The position numbers and the translations under genes are program-made. From assembly GCA_035995165.1 (NCBI GenBank), contig DASYKU010000088.1:1-50742 (forward strand): a DNA stretch of 50,742 bases, read 5' to 3'. Below are positions 2,117 to 18,215 of the stretch, one piece after another. The notes below the pieces were generated by a model. The model searched no databases and was not told the origin of the DNA. It saw nothing but the letters and a program-made list of their open reading frames with translations. Position 1 is the first letter of the stretch, and each line of letters starts with the position of its first letter. Origin of the DNA: Mycobacteriales bacterium. GTDB taxonomy: Bacteria > Actinomycetota > Actinomycetes > Mycobacteriales > CADCTP01.

Positions 2117-3403
2117 GTGATGAGCAACGACGGTGGCCGGGCGCCGCTGTCCCGGAGGGCCTTCCTCGGGACGGCCGCGCTCGGCACGGCCGTGGTCGGC
2201 GGCGCGACGATCGGCGGGATCAAGCTCGCCTCGGACGCGCGCGCCGGGAACGGCGACGACGGGCCCGAGCCCATACCGCCCCGGGGGTTCCGCGGCTACC
2301 ACCAGATCGGGGTGCTGGAGCACCCGGCCGCGCACGGACTGCTGGCCGCGTTCACCTGCGTGGACGAGACCCGCGGCGCGCTGGCCGAGACGTTCCGCAA
2401 CCTCTCCGAGGAGATCGACTCGCTGATCGCCGGCCGGGTGCCGGCCGAGAGCGACCGCGACCTGCCGCCGCCGGACAGCGGCGTGCTCATGGAGGTCACC
2501 GACCCCGGCCTGACGATCACCGTGTCGGTCGGCGCCTCCCTCTTCGACGCCCGGTACGGGCTGGCCGACCGCAAGCCGCGCGAGCTGGTCACGATGCCGT
2601 TCCTGGCCAACGACCGGCTCGACCCGGCCCGCTCGCACGGCGACGTCCTCATCTCCCTGCAGGGCAAGGAGCCGGACGTCTGCATCCACGCGCTGCGCCA
2701 GATCATGCGCCGGACCCGCTCCGGGCTGGTGCTGCACTGGCTGCAGGACACCTTCACCCGGCCCGACGCCGTGCCGAAGCTCGGGCAGACCCAGAGCCGC
2801 AACCTCCTCGGCTTCAAGGACGGCACCGCCAACCCGAACGCCGATGACGAGGACCTGATGAACACCCTCGTCTGGACCTCCACCGCGGACGTCGCGCAGG
2901 ACGCGACGGGCCGCGAGCCGACCTGGACGGTCGGCGGGACGTACCAGGTCGTCCGGGTCATCCGGATGCTGGTCGAGCGCTGGGACCGGGCCGCGCTGGA
3001 GGAGCAGGAGTCGATCTTCGGCCGCCGCAAGGTCAACGGCGCCCCGCTGTCGGGGAAGGCGGAGACCGACATCCCCGACTACGCCGACGACCCGAACGGC
3101 AAGGTCACCCCGATGAGCGCGCACATCCGGCTGGCCAACCCGCGCGACGACCGTACGAAGGACAAGGTGCTGGTCCGGCGGGGGATGAGCTACACGCGCG
3201 GGATGGACTCGGCCGGGCTGCTGGACCAGGGGCTGGCGTTCGTGAGCTACCAGCGCCGGCTCACGCACTTCCTGGAGACCAACGACCGGCTCAAGGGCGA
3301 GCCGCTGGAGGAGTACATCCGCCCCGAGGGCGGCGGCTTCTTCTACGTGCTGCCCGGCGTCGTCGAGATCGGCGACTGGCTCGGCCGGCAGCTGCTGACC
3401 TGA
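2117..3403 (+). CDS. efeB: EfeB-type DyP heme peroxidase, Tat-exported
   Basis: 428 residues. A twin-arginine signal (SRRAFLG followed by a hydrophobic stretch) predicts Tat export of the folded, heme-loaded enzyme. The DyP signature GxxDG is present as GFKDG (residues 232-236), and a likely proximal heme His lies in AHIRLANPR (about His336). EfeB oxidises ferrous iron and/or releases iron from heme for EfeO. Start is GTG 2117 or ATG 2120, adjacent codons in the same frame. It forms an operon with efeO under the iron box. No EfeU/Ftr1 permease gene follows, which is unusual for this locus. Confidence 0.92.
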   Translation: MMSNDGGRAPLSRRAFLGTAALGTAVVGGATIGGIKLASDARAGNGDDGPEPIPPRGFRGYHQIGVLEHPAAHGLLAAFTCVDETRGALAETFRNLSEEIDSLIAGRVPAESDRDLPPPDSGVLMEVTDPGLTITVSVGASLFDARYGLADRKPRELVTMPFLANDRLDPARSHGDVLISLQGKEPDVCIHALRQIMRRTRSGLVLHWLQDTFTRPDAVPKLGQTQSRNLLGFKDGTANPNADDEDLMNTLVWTSTADVAQDATGREPTWTVGGTYQVVRVIRMLVERWDRAALEEQESIFGRRKVNGAPLSGKAETDIPDYADDPNGKVTPMSAHIRLANPRDDRTKDKVLVRRGMSYTRGMDSAGLLDQGLAFVSYQRRLTHFLETNDRLKGEPLEEYIRPEGGGFFYVLPGVVEIGDWLGRQLLT

Positions 3404-7377: not shown

Positions 7378-8985
7378 TCACGGGGTCCGGCCCCAGACGG
7401 CGCGGCCGGCGGAGCCGATCGCCGCGCGGTAGAGGAGCCCGGTCCCGGCCCGGTCGCGGGCCAGCGCCGCCCGGGCCGCGTTCGCCCCGCAGGCCCCGTG
7501 CACGCCACCACCGGGATGGGCCGACGCCGAAGCGAGGAACAGCCGGTCGATCGGGGTGTCGGCGCGGCCCAGCCCCGGCGTCGGCCGGAGCACCAACTGC
7601 TGGAACAGCGCCGCGGTGCCGCCGGCGATCGCCCCGTCGACGAGGCTGGCGTTCTCCGCCTGCAGGCCGGCCGGCGAGGCCACCGCCCGGCCGACCACGA
7701 GGTCGCCGAACCCGGGCGCGTGCCGCTCGATCGTCGCCTGCATCCGCCCGGCGACCTGCTCGGTCAGCTCCGGCGTCCAGGTCAGCCCGTGCGGCACGTG
7801 CGTGTACGCCCACAGCGACTCGGTGCCCGCGGGCGACCGGGACGGGTCCGCCGTCGTCATCTGGCCGGCCAGGATGAACGGCCGCTCCGGGATCCGCCCG
7901 TCCGCCAGGTCCAGCGCGAACCGGCCGAACAGGTCCAGGTCGAGGTCCAGGTGGACGGTCCCGGCCCGGGCGACGGCCGGATTGCTCCACGGCACCCGCC
8001 CGGACAGCGCCCAGTCGACCTTGACGGTCGCGTCGTCCCAGTGGAACCGGTCCAGGTCGTCCCGGACCCGGGCCGGCAGGTGCTCCGCCCCGACGAGGTC
8101 GAGGTAGAGCGCCGGCGCCGGCACGTCGGCGAGCACCGCCCGGGTCGCGCCGGGCCCGTCCCCGTCCGCCGTCCGTACGCCGACCGCGCGGCCGTCACGC
8201 ACCTCCACCCCGGTCACCCGGACCCCGCAGCGCACCTCGCCGCCGCGGGCCTCCAACCGCCGGACCAGCGCGTCCGCGATGGACTGGGCCCCGCCGGCGG
8301 CGACCGGGTAGCCGACGTCCTGGGCCAGCATCGACAGCAGCCAGCCGAGCAGCGCGCTGCCGGAGGCGTCCAGGGTCAGGTCGGCGTGCATCGCGTTGCC
8401 GGCCACCAGCATCCGGGCGCCCTGGCCGCGGAACGCGTCCTGCCCGTAGCGCCGGGTGGACTGGACGGCGAAGCGGGCGAACCGCATCGTGTCGGCCACC
8501 CCGAGCCGGCGCACCAGCCCGGCCCCGGACCGCACCGGCGGGAAGGGGCTGAGCAGCGCCCCGACCAGGTGCTCCCGCATCCGCCGCCAGCCGGCGAACT
8601 CGGCCTGCCAGCGCTCGCCGTCGCCGGGCGCGAACTCCTCCACCGACGCCGCGGTCTCGGCCGGGTCGCGGGACAGCGTGACGGTCCGGTCGTCGGGCAG
8701 GACGTGCACCAGCGGCACGTGGTGGTCGTGCAGCCAGTGCAACCCGTACTCGTCCAGGCCGAGCTCGTCGATCACCGGCGACACCGCGGTCAGCGGGTAG
8801 AACGCGCTGCACAGGTCGCTGCGGTAGCCGGGCGCGGCGAGTTCGGCCGTTCGCGTTGCGCCGCCCGGTGTCGCGTTGGCCTCGAGCACGAGCACCGACC
8901 AGCCCGCGTCGGCCAACAGGTTGGCGGCGACGAGGCCGTGGTGGCCGGCGCCGACCACCACCGCGTCCCAGCTCATGCCCGGCAT
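7378..8985 (-). CDS. FAD-dependent phytoene dehydrogenase-like oxidoreductase
   Basis: 535 residues. The N-terminal dinucleotide-binding motif VVVGAGHHGLVAANLLADAG and the following EANATPGG are typical of the CrtI/NAD(P)-FAD amine-oxidase-like superfamily. The C-terminal GGGVHGACGANAA is the conserved FAD-closing segment. Actinobacteria carry many such proteins outside carotenoid clusters, and no other carotenoid gene is nearby, so the substrate is unknown. ATG 8985 follows GGGAGGA closely; an in-frame ATG at 8976 (MSWD) is an alternative. The reading frame remains open further upstream but without the fold. Confidence 0.82.
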   Translation of the reverse strand: MPGMSWDAVVVGAGHHGLVAANLLADAGWSVLVLEANATPGGATRTAELAAPGYRSDLCSAFYPLTAVSPVIDELGLDEYGLHWLHDHHVPLVHVLPDDRTVTLSRDPAETAASVEEFAPGDGERWQAEFAGWRRMREHLVGALLSPFPPVRSGAGLVRRLGVADTMRFARFAVQSTRRYGQDAFRGQGARMLVAGNAMHADLTLDASGSALLGWLLSMLAQDVGYPVAAGGAQSIADALVRRLEARGGEVRCGVRVTGVEVRDGRAVGVRTADGDGPGATRAVLADVPAPALYLDLVGAEHLPARVRDDLDRFHWDDATVKVDWALSGRVPWSNPAVARAGTVHLDLDLDLFGRFALDLADGRIPERPFILAGQMTTADPSRSPAGTESLWAYTHVPHGLTWTPELTEQVAGRMQATIERHAPGFGDLVVGRAVASPAGLQAENASLVDGAIAGGTAALFQQLVLRPTPGLGRADTPIDRLFLASASAHPGGGVHGACGANAARAALARDRAGTGLLYRAAIGSAGRAVWGRTP

Positions 8986-13242: not shown

Positions 13243-14553
13243 TCAGCGCACCAGCCGCAACCGGTGCTCCTCGACCATCGGCTCCGGGATCACCACCGGA
13301 GCCGGCATCGGCACCGGCGCCGGCTCGGCCAGCAACGTCCGGCAGGCGACCGTGAACGCCCGCGGCGCGTTGACCGCCGCGACCCCGGCCAGCCGGCCGT
13401 CCTCGACGTAGTGCGCGACCACGCCGGCCCGGGCGGTGTCGCGCCGGCGCGGTCGCAGCTCGGTCAGGTGCACGTCGGCGCGGTCCGAGAGCCGGCCGCA
13501 GACCTGGATGCGCAGCCCGTTCTGGTCCGACCAGAACCGCGGCAGCAGCGAGACCGGCGGCGCCCCGGAGTGGCCGGCGAGCAGCGTCGCCGCCGCCGCC
13601 CGGCCCTGCTCCACCGCCATGATCCACTGCCCGACCCGGTGCGCGCCCGGCCTGCGGTGCCGCGGATCCGGCCAGCGGGCCAGCGCGCCCGCGGCGACCA
13701 CCCCGTCCAGTCCGACCACCCGCAGCGACTCGTCGCAGAGCAGCCCGTCGGAGCGGTCGGTCGGCGTGCCCTCCAGCCAGTCCAGCTCCGGCTTCTCGCC
13801 CGCGGCCACCACGACCAGGTCGGCCGACACGGTCTCGCCTGAGTCCAGCAGCAGCCGCCAGCCGTGCCGGCGTCGCTCGGCGTCGGCGACCTTGCGGCCG
13901 AGCCGCAGCTCCAGCCCGGCGGCCCGGTGCGAGGCGGTGACCAGCGCGCCGAGCTGCTCGCCGATCGAGCGCGGCATGAGGTGCGGCTGGGAGTTCACCA
14001 GCACCGCCCGCCGCGCCATCGCGGTCACCGCGCAGGCGACCTCGCAGCCGGTCAGCCCGCCGCCGACGACCGCGACGCTGCCGGCCCGGGTCAGCGCGGA
14101 CCGCAGGGCCAGCGCGTCGGCCAGGTCGTGCAGCAGGTGCAGGCCCGGTCCGGCCGGCCAGGCCGGCGGCAGCGTGGGCTTGGTGCCGGTCGCGACGACC
14201 AGCCCGTCGTACGCCAGGGACTCGCCGGTGGCGAACAGCAGCCGCCGGGCCTCCGGATCCAGGCCCGCCACCCGGGCGCCGACGTGCCAGCGCACGTCCG
14301 GGTGCCCGCGCAGGTCCAGCGCGATGTCGCGGGGCCGCTGGTGCCCGTCGAGCAGGCCCTTCGAGCAGGCCGTCCGGTCGTACGGGCCGAGCGGCTCGGC
14401 GCCGACGGCCATGATCTCGCCGGCGAACCCGAGCCGGCGCAGCTCGGCGGCGGCGCTCCACCCGGCCGCGCCGGTGCCGACGACGACGATCCGGTCGCGG
14501 GGTCCGTAGGCGGGGCGGCCGTCCCGGCTGACCCGCAGCTGGTGCACGCTCAT
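13243..14553 (-). CDS. FAD/NAD(P)-dependent ferredoxin reductase-type protein
   Basis: 436 residues with two Rossmann motifs: GTGAAG (26-31) for FAD and GGGLTG (164-169) for NAD(P)H. GPYDRTACSKGLLDG and ATGTKPTLPP match the Pyr_redox_2 family of ferredoxin and rubredoxin reductases, and a C-terminal reductase-like domain follows (residues about 330-410). It should pass electrons from NAD(P)H to an iron-sulfur protein. Its ATG overlaps the stop of the upstream gene, which encodes a ferredoxin domain fused to a heme-binding-type membrane domain, so that protein is the obvious partner. Confidence 0.85.
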   Translation of the reverse strand: MSVHQLRVSRDGRPAYGPRDRIVVVGTGAAGWSAAAELRRLGFAGEIMAVGAEPLGPYDRTACSKGLLDGHQRPRDIALDLRGHPDVRWHVGARVAGLDPEARRLLFATGESLAYDGLVVATGTKPTLPPAWPAGPGLHLLHDLADALALRSALTRAGSVAVVGGGLTGCEVACAVTAMARRAVLVNSQPHLMPRSIGEQLGALVTASHRAAGLELRLGRKVADAERRRHGWRLLLDSGETVSADLVVVAAGEKPELDWLEGTPTDRSDGLLCDESLRVVGLDGVVAAGALARWPDPRHRRPGAHRVGQWIMAVEQGRAAAATLLAGHSGAPPVSLLPRFWSDQNGLRIQVCGRLSDRADVHLTELRPRRRDTARAGVVAHYVEDGRLAGVAAVNAPRAFTVACRTLLAEPAPVPMPAPVVIPEPMVEEHRLRLVR

Positions 14554-16169
14554 CGGCCCGCTCCCGACCGGCCGCCGGGGATCCCCCGCAGCGGCGGCAG
14601 ATGATGTCGCCCGGTGTCCTGCATGTCCGACGGCGGCGGCAACGCCTCCGCCGGCCGCGCTGCCCGCGCCCCCGGCCGCGGTGCACCCACTGCCCGCGGC
14701 CCGGGCGGCGCCCCGACCCGCGGCAGCGACCCGGTCCCCGGGTCGCCCGAGACCCGTGGCAACGACCCGGTCCCCGGGCCCGAGACTCGCGGCAGCGACC
14801 CGGTCCCCGGGTCGCCCGAGACCCGCGGCAACGACCCGTTCCCCGAGTCGTTCGCGGTCCGGGGGAGGGACCCGGGGCCGGTCGCGATCGGCGGCAGCGA
14901 CCCCGTTCCCGGACCGCCGGCGACGCGCGGCAGGGAACCGGTTCCAGGGCCGGAAGCGACCCGCGGCAGGGAACCGGTTCCAGGGCCGGAAGCGACCCGC
15001 GGCAGGGAACCGGTTCCAGGGCCGGAAGCGACCCGGGGAAGGGAGCCTGTCCCGGGCCCGGCGGCGACTCGGGGGAGGGGGCCGGTGCCGGGGTCGGCGA
15101 CCGGGGCCAGGCGGGCCACCGGGACCGGTGCGGCGCGCCGGGGTGCGGGCTCGGGCTCAGGGGAGGGGGTGGGGGTGGAGGACCGGAGGGCGACCGGCTC
15201 GGCGGCCGGGGTCCGGTGCGCGACCGGCTCCGCGGCCCGCCGTACGGGGTCGGCGGCCGCCCGCCGGGGTACGGGCTCCGGCGACCGGCGCGGCACCGCG
15301 GCCGGCCGGAACGCCGGAGCCAGGGACTCTGCCACCGGAGCCGCCTCGGCCGGGACCAGCTCCTGCTCGCCGGTCTGCGCCAGCACCACCGACGTGGGCA
15401 GCCGCCCGATCGCGATCGCCCGCGCCGGGCATACCACCGCCGCCCGCATCGCCACGTCGGCCTGGTCACTGGAGACCACCGACCGGTACGCGAGCCGCCG
15501 GTCGCTGCGCAGCGAGAAGATCGCCGGCGCCTCCTGCTCGCAGAACCCGAACGACTTGCACCGCACCGCGTCCACCGCGACCGTGATCTCCTCCGCCCGC
15601 TGCTGCCGGGCGACCCGCTCCAGCAGGCTGCGCGGCAGCCGCGCCACCGGCGCGATCGTCGCGGCCCCGGCCAGCACGACCGTGCCCCAGGCCAGCGCGA
15701 CCGCCGCCCGGACCGGCGCCGCCGCGACCTCCGACCCGGAGATCATCAGGTGCGCGGCGACCATCGTGAACGAGAGGTAGCCGAGCGAGTGCAACGCCCG
15801 CCACCGCTGCCAGCCGAGCTTGCGCTGCACCAGCACCGACAGCGCGGTGGCGATCATCAGTTCCAGCGCGAGCACGCCGAGCCCGACCCCGAGCGGGTCG
15901 GCCCGGTCGGTGAACGGGATGACGACGTCGATCCCCCGGACCCTGCCGCCGGGCGCGGCCAGCTGGACCAGCCCGTGCACGACGCCGAGGCAGAGCCCGA
16001 GCAGGATCAGGTGCATGTGGATGCCGTGCACGGTGTGGTGCCGGAGCCGGGCCGAGGCCCAGCCGCTGCGGAGCACGGTGCCCATCAGCGTGCCGGCCCA
16101 CAGGGCGCCGAACGAGACGAAGCCGATCGTGGCGGCAACGAGGTGCACGCTCTCGATTGCGGTCGGCAT
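14550..16169 (-). CDS. Fused heme-b-type membrane domain, ferredoxin domain and 12-residue repeat tail
   Basis: 539 residues from ATG 16169, chosen because GGAG precedes it and the hydrophobic domain begins there. Residues 1-175 hold about five membrane segments with histidines spaced as in ferric reductase-like bis-heme domains (His51/53 with His65; His127 with His140, 13 apart). Residues 195-255 are a ferredoxin: VRCKSFGFCEQEAP and VCPARAIAI give Cys204, Cys210 and Cys247-Pro, the three-cysteine pattern of actinobacterial [3Fe-4S] ferredoxins. Residues about 270-520 are Pro/Ala/Arg-rich and include many copies of GPGTGSLPRVAS-like units. Overlap with the reductase gene suggests an NAD(P)H to FAD to Fe-S to heme chain at the membrane. 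The acceptor is unknown. Confidence 0.8.
   Translation of the reverse strand: MPTAIESVHLVAATIGFVSFGALWAGTLMGTVLRSGWASARLRHHTVHGIHMHLILLGLCLGVVHGLVQLAAPGGRVRGIDVVIPFTDRADPLGVGLGVLALELMIATALSVLVQRKLGWQRWRALHSLGYLSFTMVAAHLMISGSEVAAAPVRAAVALAWGTVVLAGAATIAPVARLPRSLLERVARQQRAEEITVAVDAVRCKSFGFCEQEAPAIFSLRSDRRLAYRSVVSSDQADVAMRAAVVCPARAIAIGRLPTSVVLAQTGEQELVPAEAAPVAESLAPAFRPAAVPRRSPEPVPRRAAADPVRRAAEPVAHRTPAAEPVALRSSTPTPSPEPEPAPRRAAPVPVARLAPVADPGTGPLPRVAAGPGTGSLPRVASGPGTGSLPRVASGPGTGSLPRVASGPGTGSLPRVAGGPGTGSLPPIATGPGSLPRTANDSGNGSLPRVSGDPGTGSLPRVSGPGTGSLPRVSGDPGTGSLPRVGAPPGPRAVGAPRPGARAARPAEALPPPSDMQDTGRHHLPPLRGIPGGRSGAGR
14700..15105. repeat. 36-bp coding tandem repeat
   Basis: The tail of the heme/ferredoxin protein is built from 36-bp (sometimes 33-bp) units encoding GPGTGSLPRVAS or close variants, about ten in all. 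Three consecutive units between about 14930 and 15037 are almost identical at the DNA level, so the array has expanded recently. Spacing is always a multiple of three, so the frame is kept. Confidence 0.9.
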
Positions 16170-16300: not shown

Positions 16301-17359
16301 CTAGCAGCGCATCCCGTTGTTGATGCAGCCGACGGCGACCCGCATGAGCCGGTCCGACATGACGTTCTCGAAGTCGTTGTGGTCGGTCACGGCCTTACGC
16401 AGCTGCTCCGGGAACGTGTCCACCGCGAACGAGGCGCCGGGGGCGACCCGATAGCCGAGAATGATGCGCAGCTGCGGGATGGCCTTGAAGCCCTCGGGGC
16501 AGGCGCCGGTCGTGGGGTCGGCGAACGCGACGTGCGACCGGTGCGTCGCGCTGTCCAGGTCGGTGCCGTTCCAGCAGCCCGGGAAGTCGTTCACGCGCTG
16601 CACGAGCTGGCCGCGCGGGCAGATCGGGTACTGGGTCGAGCTGGCCTTGTCGTGCGTACCGGAGCAGGTCCAGTGGGCCCTGGCCAGCGGGTCGTTCGGC
16701 CCATTGGTCACGGCCTTCGCGTCGCCGGTGACGATGCGCAGGAAGCGCGGCATCGCGGCGACGCGGCCCTGGGCGTTGCCGAGGAACTGGATGGAGACCT
16801 GGGCCGGCGTGAGGATCGTGCCCATGTTGCCGTCCGCGCCGCCGCCGGGGGCGCCCGCGTCGTCGCCGGCCGTACGGATGTCGCGCAGCACCGGCCAGAA
16901 GTACGTCGACAGGTCACCGCCGCGGCAGGTCGTCCCGGCCGCCGCCAGCGACTCGTCGGTCGCGTTGCCGTCCGTGGACAGGTTGCCGACGTAGTCGTGG
17001 GTGTGGTGGGCGCCGTTGCTCACGCCCGGCGAGGTGATGAAGTTGTCGGAGTTGCGGTGCGCGTTGGTGTTGCGCCCGCACTGGGCGGTGAACGTGCCCC
17101 GGGAAGCGCCGCGGACCGGTCGGGGGGCCGGCGTCGCCGCCGGCGCGTCCTGGATCCGTACGTAGTCCTCGGGCACGGTCACCGGGTGGTTGTGCCCGTC
17201 GACCGACTCCAGCGTCGACTGGATCTCCGGCGCCGCGGCCGGGCTCTCGGCCGCGGCGGCCCAGCGGACGCCGACGCCCGCCGCGCTGCCGATGGCCACC
17301 ACTGCGAACACGGCGGCCATCCGGCGTCTTCGGCTGCCTCGCTGTTCCAAGTACGGCAA
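16301..17359 (-). CDS. Secreted DUF1996 protein
   Basis: 352 residues with an N-terminal basic region and one hydrophobic segment (about residues 13-36) that acts as signal peptide or anchor. The body shows DUF1996 features: FTAQCGRNTNAHRNSDNFI, GAHHTHDYVGN, SSTQYPICPRGQLVQRVNDFPGCWNG and HRSHVAFAD. It is His- and Cys-rich. The family occurs in fungi and actinobacteria as secreted proteins of unknown function. It lies 49 bp downstream of the DUF4142 gene on the same strand and is followed by a strong terminator, so the two form one unit. Confidence 0.88.
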   Translation of the reverse strand: MPYLEQRGSRRRRMAAVFAVVAIGSAAGVGVRWAAAAESPAAAPEIQSTLESVDGHNHPVTVPEDYVRIQDAPAATPAPRPVRGASRGTFTAQCGRNTNAHRNSDNFITSPGVSNGAHHTHDYVGNLSTDGNATDESLAAAGTTCRGGDLSTYFWPVLRDIRTAGDDAGAPGGGADGNMGTILTPAQVSIQFLGNAQGRVAAMPRFLRIVTGDAKAVTNGPNDPLARAHWTCSGTHDKASSTQYPICPRGQLVQRVNDFPGCWNGTDLDSATHRSHVAFADPTTGACPEGFKAIPQLRIILGYRVAPGASFAVDTFPEQLRKAVTDHNDFENVMSDRLMRVAVGCINNGMRC

Positions 17360-17408: not shown

Positions 17409-18215
17409 TCAGGCCCAGGAGCGGCGCGCGGCCAGGGCGAGGTTGGCGACGGCGACGAGGACCACGGCCACGATCACCAGCGGGGTGGTGATCGGCCCGT
17501 GCGGCGCCGGCGGAGCGAGCACGTCGGCCTCGACCGGCGCGACCAGCCCGGTGCTCTCGAGCAGGCTCATGTGCTTCATCACCACGTCGGTGGCCTCCGC
17601 GGCGAAGGCCCGCACGAGCGTGTTGCGGGTGCTGGCCCGGACGTCCGCGACGATCGCGAACACCTGACCGTGCGCGGTCCGCAGTCGGTTGGCGAAGGTC
17701 TCGTCGAACGCGTGTCCGCGCTCCGGCGTCATCTCGGCCAGCCAGTTCCGCTGGTTGAGGTTCGGCTGGTCCGGCAGTTGCACCTGGAGCTTGCGGGCGG
17801 CCGCACCGACCTCCTCGTCCAACCGGCGGTGGTCGGCGGCGAGCACCCGGCCCACCGCCTGCACCCGCTGGTCGGAGGAGTGGGTCTGGGCCATGTCGCC
17901 GGCCGGGACCTCCCATGACCCGGCGAGCTTGACCCGGACCAGGAGGTCCTTGTCGGTGGCCGTGAGCGGGCCCCAGGAGGTGTCGACCGAGGGTCCGTCC
18001 TCGGCCGCGGCGACGCCGGCGGCCAGCGGTGCGGGCATGCCGAGGTGTCCGGACGGGTGCGCCTGCGAGGCGCTCGTCGCCGGGCCGGACCACCAGCCGA
18101 CGGCGAGCACGGCGAGGACGCCGACGGCCAGGACCGTCCCCGGCCGTCGCCATCGTCCGTCCCCGGCCAGGGCCGGGCGCCGCCTCGCGCAGGCAGCGGT
18201 CGATCTTCGGTGCAT
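17409..18215 (-). CDS. DUF4142 exported protein with C-terminal membrane anchor
   Basis: 268 residues. There is an N-terminal signal-type segment (about 26-46) and a C-terminal hydrophobic helix (about 241-262). The central part, PLTATDKDLLVRVKLAGSWEVPAG through SSDQRVQAVGRVLAADHRRLDEEV, is the DUF4142 helical domain (ferritin-like bundle; function unknown). ATG 18215 is fixed by GGAGGA 4 nt upstream. It probably starts the unit with DUF1996. Its promoter must lie in the AT-richer stretch at 18230-18500. Confidence 0.85.
   Translation of the reverse strand: MHRRSTAACARRRPALAGDGRWRRPGTVLAVGVLAVLAVGWWSGPATSASQAHPSGHLGMPAPLAAGVAAAEDGPSVDTSWGPLTATDKDLLVRVKLAGSWEVPAGDMAQTHSSDQRVQAVGRVLAADHRRLDEEVGAAARKLQVQLPDQPNLNQRNWLAEMTPERGHAFDETFANRLRTAHGQVFAIVADVRASTRNTLVRAFAAEATDVVMKHMSLLESTGLVAPVEADVLAPPAPHGPITTPLVIVAVVLVAVANLALAARRSWA

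Follow-up and report, generated by a model that had tools for sequence, protein, structure and literature searches.

A ferric reductase-like membrane protein fused to a [3Fe-4S]-type ferredoxin and paired with a separate ferredoxin reductase: a putative transmembrane electron exporter of actinobacteria

The 50,742-nucleotide contig DASYKU010000088.1 of a Mycobacteriales bacterium (assembly GCA_035995165.1; this whole stretch is referred to as the window) contains two minus-strand genes at positions 13243-16169 that appear to constitute a membrane redox module. The first (14550..16169) codes for a 539-residue fusion protein with a predicted membrane heme domain of the ferric-reductase/NOX type (residues 1-176; 15642..16169), a [3Fe-4S]-type ferredoxin domain (residues 195-257; 15399..15587) and a disordered, repeat-containing tail (residues 261-539), and the second (13243..14553) codes for a 436-residue FAD/NAD(P)H ferredoxin reductase. 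The two open reading frames (ORFs) share 4 bp (ATGA, 14550-14553), exactly as described in a prediction made earlier from the sequence of this window (the original prediction), which left the strand unstated. The module it described holds as far as it went, but conserved partners were overlooked, namely DUF4142 and DUF1996 proteins and, in relatives, a SigL/RslA-type pair and a lipoprotein. A scan of the region for promoters, terminators and Rfam families gave no matches.

The membrane domain is predicted to form five helices (residues 2-35, 44-71, 92-111, 129-144 and 151-176; AlphaFold2 model built from 34 homologues) in which four histidines, H51, H65, H127 and H140, are located, and all four are invariant in the 34 homologues. 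The original prediction placed the members of each histidine pair 13 residues apart, which is correct for H127-H140 but not for H51-H65, where the spacing is 14; these spacings equal those of the SpNOX heme histidines (H69/H83 and H129/H142; PMC11564096) and of the NOX2 histidines (101/115 and 209/222; PMC3591440). Structural alignment (VIA-align) matches residues 7-173 to SpNOX (8qt6) with a Z score of 16.0 over 149 residues (root-mean-square deviation 2.9), and residues 1-177 to STEAP1, STEAP2 and STEAP4 with Z scores of about 14.5 (14.6 for STEAP1); because cytochrome b561 and Dcytb score at about the same level as STEAP (14.4-14.5), the membrane fold alone singles out no one function. A Foldseek search with the model, the long tail included in the query, returned nothing with an E-value below 0.001. 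Homologues at loci L048, L056, L075 and L082 and a plasmid-encoded protein pass the Pfam cut-off for Ferric_reduct (PF01794), which the window protein does not reach. The invariant histidines and the SpNOX match bear out the ferric reductase-like domain that had been proposed. As judged from conservation and modelling, the domain belongs to the FRD fold and likely provides a two-heme path from the cytosol to the outside. Separate Ferric_reduct proteins without a ferredoxin are encoded at L002, on another contig of the window genome, and at L043, where the gene adjoins ApbE and is of the flavinylated MsrQ-like type.

The ferredoxin domain contains the arrangement C204-x5-C210-x36-C247-P248, with its cysteines where they had been predicted; Cys60 is the sole further cysteine. 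The three cysteines and the following proline are invariant in the 34 homologues; at position 207, the place expected for a fourth cysteine ligand, these sequences have F or Y and never C. Homologues lacking the cysteines had been named beforehand as a refutation, and the three are retained in 34 of 34. The motif resembles the CXXHXXC(X)nCP motif of M. tuberculosis Fdx and FdxE (PMC9868604), and residues 194-257 match solved 3Fe-4S ferredoxins with Z scores of 10.8-11.8 (VIA-align; 11.8 for M. tuberculosis Fdx, 8amp, and 10.8 for 1siz), so that motif conservation and fold agree with the three-cysteine ferredoxin of the original prediction. The AlphaFold2 model shows a ferredoxin fold at residues 195-256, and by motif and fold the domain is of the single-cluster [3Fe-4S] type, with the cluster itself a prediction.

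The reductase was also correctly recognized. It has Pyr_redox_2 (E 4e-47) and Reductase_C (E 2e-10) Pfam domains, and its best solved match is 1d7y, a ferredoxin reductase (E 7e-43, residues 21-412), with the next matches labelled biphenyl dioxygenase ferredoxin reductase; by sequence it is a BphA4/putidaredoxin-reductase-type flavoprotein. At the end of the second strand in the NAD fold most clade relatives have D and the window reductase has N, which may bear on the preference for NADH or NADPH. The reductase gene follows the fusion gene in most loci, frequently overlapping it. Four fusion genes (L058, L062, L065 and L066) have no reductase within the fetched flanks and may share one encoded elsewhere. 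Possible docking motifs are present at the C-termini of both proteins: many reductases end in RRLAAV-like sequences (e.g. L056 and L064; EEHRLRLVR in the window), and several fusion proteins have a short ANVTGLxxRGGK-like motif (e.g. L056 and L060).

Positive charge is found on loops 34-46, 114-126 and 175-194, both in the window protein and averaged over the 34 homologues, and this distribution puts the N-terminus outside and the C-terminus inside, with the ferredoxin predicted to lie beside the inner heme and the tail to be cytoplasmic. With this topology, the soluble flavoprotein would take hydride from NAD(P)H and hand single electrons to the cytoplasmic ferredoxin domain of the fusion, from which they would pass to an inner heme b (H51/H127), then to an outer heme b (H65/H140), and finally to an extracytoplasmic acceptor. 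The order NAD(P)H to FAD to Fe-S to heme, put forward in the original prediction, is supported by the conserved motifs, the fold matches, the operon structure and independent homologues, and we consider the chain up to and including the outer heme to be highly probable.

The tail includes an array of 11 units of 10-12 residues (SLPRVxxGPGTG; residues 364-492; 14694..15080, minus strand), which had been described as about ten 12-residue repeats; nine units have 12 residues, and the other two have 10 and 11. Self-identity of the tail at a lag of 12 is 99, whereas 2000 shuffles gave 31 +/- 5 and never more than 47. It is rich in Pro, Gly, Ala and Arg and is predicted to be disordered (predicted local distance difference test score under 60; AlphaFold2). 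The suggestion that it is a surface spacer or binding platform is not supported, because the positively charged loops locate both the tail and the ferredoxin inside the cell, a topology that contradicts surface display and makes a surface role unlikely; the predicted disorder and the short, variable and unrelated tails of the homologues, none of which has the array, point the same way. Could the array be a DNA minisatellite that expanded neutrally and is itself without function? Its absence from the homologues, its disorder in the model, and the GC-rich DNA and further tandem repeats in the window are in keeping with this. However, most of the differences among the units are synonymous when read in the coding frame, with a ratio of nonsynonymous to synonymous differences (pN/pS) of 0.38 for complete units and 0.20 for their SLPRV core; pN/pS is above 1 in four of the other five frames, and 0.50 in one antisense frame. 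Judged by these codon changes the array is kept as protein, and we rate neutral expansion as a real possibility, at a little under even chances; it concerns the tail only and is compatible with our interpretation of the module.

The same fusion, for which a gene-neighbourhood search had been suggested, is present across loci of soil actinobacteria. A single scan of 84,980 genomes with a ferredoxin peptide pattern, a form of sampling that favours fusions, identified 38 loci in Asanoa, Planosporangium, Catellatospora, Dactylosporangium, Virgisporangium, Kineosporia, Umezawaea, Amycolatopsis, Saccharothrix and metagenome-assembled genomes. Together with sequences from other genomes these give a set of 48 that forms two strongly separated groups; the first, to which the window belongs, is fused in 32 of 32, and the second has nine fused members and seven split into adjacent genes, with the tree requiring 3-5 fusion or fission events. 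The module is patchily distributed, because a 198-genome sample of the phylum (E 1e-30) yielded only the copy in the window. A further split set is carried by the M. abscessus plasmid pGD22-1, which encodes a heavy-metal P-type ATPase and a MerR regulator a few genes away, and where the components are annotated as 'ferric reductase-like transmembrane domain-containing protein', 'ferredoxin' and 'NAD(P)/FAD-dependent oxidoreductase'. The parts are thus annotated singly in public records and the system appears to be undescribed; we found no description of the combination in the openly licensed literature, where absence is weak evidence.

Two genes upstream of the fusion gene and on the same strand encode predicted extracytoplasmic proteins. 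The nearer (16301..17359) encodes a DUF1996 protein, and beyond it (17409..18215) is a gene for a DUF4142 protein with an N-terminal hydrophobic signal-like stretch, a four-helix bundle, and a C-terminal membrane helix (residues 244-267). Using hidden Markov models built from the loci, we find DUF4142 in 28 of 49 loci. In 27 of 47 loci (the window included) it lies no more than 2.5 kb from the gene for the membrane protein; the two genes often overlap or are same-strand neighbours, and sometimes they are divergent. Genomes contain just 0-5 DUF4142 copies. DUF1996 is beside the module in eight of the 49 (the window and seven others), a SigL-like extracytoplasmic function (ECF) sigma factor with a zinc anti-sigma factor is in 17, and a SCO0930-type lipoprotein is in 15. 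Fungal DUF1996 proteins influence stress and metal tolerance (PMC4738358). The window DUF4142 protein scores well above the PF13628 cut-off (74 bits versus 27), and the fold matches to its model are a DUF305 protein (Z 17.1), CopM (15.9) and Dps/ferritins (14-15); the rank of these matches counts for more than the Z scores, because four-helix bundles score high generally. E102, H129, H182 and H215, one per helix, are kept in 16-17 of 17, and could form a candidate site. Two Asanoa DUF4142 proteins (L051:4774-5787 and L054:4780-5787) have an additional N-terminal segment rich in Met and His (HMAGMSHTEHMAAM...) that hints at copper binding. A secreted family with no Pfam match adjoins the module in seven loci (among them L051:3612-4718, L053:8680-9726 and L071:18-770). 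About 10 kb from the module in the window there is a locus of iron-uptake type, with Imelysin (Peptidase_M75, EfeO-like; 1178-2104) followed by a Dyp-type peroxidase (EfeB-like; 2117-3403), both on the plus strand.

The ECF factors encoded at module loci match M. tuberculosis SigL (6dv9) with an E-value of 6e-52, compared with 5e-21 for the next different family, and the accompanying anti-sigma factors match RslA and have HxxxCxxC in 17 of 17. For M. tuberculosis, a link between SigL-type regulation and low-iron growth is described (PMC10449499). In four related genomes each of the five module genes has, close to its start, the promoter-like sequence TGAAC-N16-18-CGT, with a spacer that is nearly always 17 bases (20 of 20, 1.8 expected), these sites not being independent events because the genomes are related; it is near 12 of 95 starts of other genes (2.4 expected). 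In genome G012, four of the 20 genome-wide TGAACYGG-N14-CGT sites fall within 5.5 kb at the module, and those sites of G012 and G000 that are not at the module are mostly within genes or before unrelated genes, the window genome's sigL excepted. The latter (L158:8194-8700, with the zinc anti-sigma gene at 7499-8479) is on another contig and is preceded by TGAACCGG-N14-CGT. In the relatives, the SigL/RslA-type pair probably controls the module.

Taken together, we propose that the module is a NOX/STEAP-like transmembrane electron exporter in which a ferredoxin and a separate reductase replace the flavin/NADPH domain, and that it has an extracytoplasmic metal or redox-stress function; we think this somewhat more probable than the contrary. 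The likeliest acceptor, or handler of an acceptor, would be the neighbouring membrane-tethered DUF4142 protein or a metal bound to it (Fe3+ or Cu2+), an assignment we make tentatively and with less than even confidence. The module would then form part of an envelope metal/redox-stress response, in relatives probably under the sigma/anti-sigma pair. Among functions we favour metal reduction or loading with DUF4142, followed by envelope oxidant defence, and superoxide production less. The most specific version, a dedicated extracytoplasmic metal-charging or metal-reduction machine in which a SigL/RslA-type stress regulon deploys a ferredoxin-driven NOX-like heme protein to send electrons to a membrane-tethered ferritin/CopM-like protein, is speculative, and we put its chances at roughly one in three.

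Several observations weigh against the exporter interpretation. The window protein itself is below the Ferric_reduct cut-off (12.5 bits versus 28) and, at 21.7 bits, just below the Fer4_15 cut-off of 22.4 that its homologues exceed, and it has five predicted helices versus six in NOX and STEAP, and the longer ORF form of the gene adds no hydrophobic segment upstream. DUF4142 is not within 2.5 kb in 20 of the 47 loci, and direct metal context is confined to the one plasmid, with weaker hints elsewhere, namely a CsoR-type repressor about 1.8 kb downstream in L041 and the Met/His-rich N-termini of the Asanoa DUF4142 proteins. In the window's genome sigL and rslA are on a different contig from the module, the window operon has no SigL-type promoter site upstream, although one precedes the sigL of this genome, and the SCO0930-type lipoprotein was not found by a search that detected it in two other genomes. 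The heme, cluster and activity are themselves predictions from sequence and models.

An alternative is that the module resembles MsrQ, with the outer heme feeding a protein outside the cytoplasm that acts in repair or scavenging (either the lipoprotein or DUF4142 being the oxidisable partner) as part of a response to oxidant damage. The conserved extracytoplasmic partner genes fit this, as do SigL/RslA-type control with its redox-sensing HxxxCxxC (the affinity of RslA for SigL falls on oxidation; PMC2877774) and a weak similarity of the membrane domain to MsrQ (NF003831, E 0.03, 13.7 bits versus a cut-off of 130; NCBIfam). However, electrons would come from NAD(P)H and ferredoxin rather than from quinol, the DUF4142 fold matches are metal-handling proteins, and no MsrP-like family recurs among the neighbours (no search with an MsrP model was made), so that MsrP repair in particular was set aside; the broader MsrQ-like function seems unlikely, with perhaps one chance in four. 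A flavinylation system was also rejected, as an ApbE model derived from a single sequence, itself confirmed as ApbE at another FRD locus, had no match in any of the 49 loci.

An NADPH-oxidase-like enzyme, with the outer heme converting O2 to superoxide for signalling or defence, would suit the two-heme, four-histidine pattern and the identity of the best fold match, SpNOX being an O2 reducer in vitro; yet SpNOX is promiscuous with an uncertain physiological acceptor (PMC11564096), and an oxidase would not be expected to have its own ferritin-like partner or metal or stress regulators, and we regard this function as improbable. Lastly, the ferredoxin and reductase are of types that cytochrome P450s use (PMC9868604), but no P450 family recurs among the neighbours and four heme-ligand-type histidines invariant in 34 sequences are unexpected in a mere anchor, so a P450 redox-partner pair in which the membrane part only anchors is very improbable.

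FRD-family proteins described in the literature consulted receive electrons from a fused FAD/NADPH domain or from quinol, or act with flavinylated partners; feeding by a ferredoxin and separate reductase would be another solution, possibly one that is tuned or shared with other redox systems. The electron exporter proposed here would also offer a testable role for proteins of unknown function through its link to DUF4142 and, in relatives, to the SigL/RslA-type pair and the SCO0930-type lipoprotein, and would provide SigL-type regulation with a concrete membrane redox effector to test.

Comparison with known systems places the fusion as an FRD-fold protein that is nonetheless not a NOX, STEAP or MsrQ by the defining features tested. 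With SpNOX and other NOX proteins it shares the heme-binding membrane fold, the histidine spacings and the likely two-heme path, but it does not have the same-chain dehydrogenase domain of NOX and long-form FRE proteins, since residues 195-257 are ferredoxin and the remainder is disordered tail; in place of a C-terminal FAD/NADPH domain there is a three-cysteine ferredoxin and a separate reductase, and a helix fewer is predicted. The STEAP metalloreductases have a similar fold and share the proposed role of exporting electrons to metals, but reduced histidine sets are listed for them (PMC3591440) as compared with four in the fusion, which also lacks an N-terminal F420/NADPH domain. As in MsrPQ and the flavinylated MsrQ-like actinobacterial systems (PMC8238504), a Ferric_reduct-family membrane protein would feed an extracytoplasmic partner, but the module is linked to ferredoxin rather than to quinol or FMN, and there is neither an ApbE gene nor a recurring MsrP family nearby (the MsrP model was not run). 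Sigma and zinc anti-sigma factors of the M. tuberculosis SigL/RslA type are encoded with the module in relatives, where they are tied to electron-export genes, but not in the window itself. The module reductase has the domain order of BphA4 and putidaredoxin reductase and matches them over its full length, but its partner would be a ferredoxin domain bound to the membrane and not the ferredoxin of a dioxygenase or P450. The M. capsulatus CYP51-Fd protein (6mcw) is similarly a fusion of the same ferredoxin type to a heme-protein acceptor that still needs a separate reductase, but the acceptor there is a P450 and here a membrane heme-b domain. Taken singly, the ferredoxin and the reductase are unremarkable within their families, and the novelty lies in the combination.

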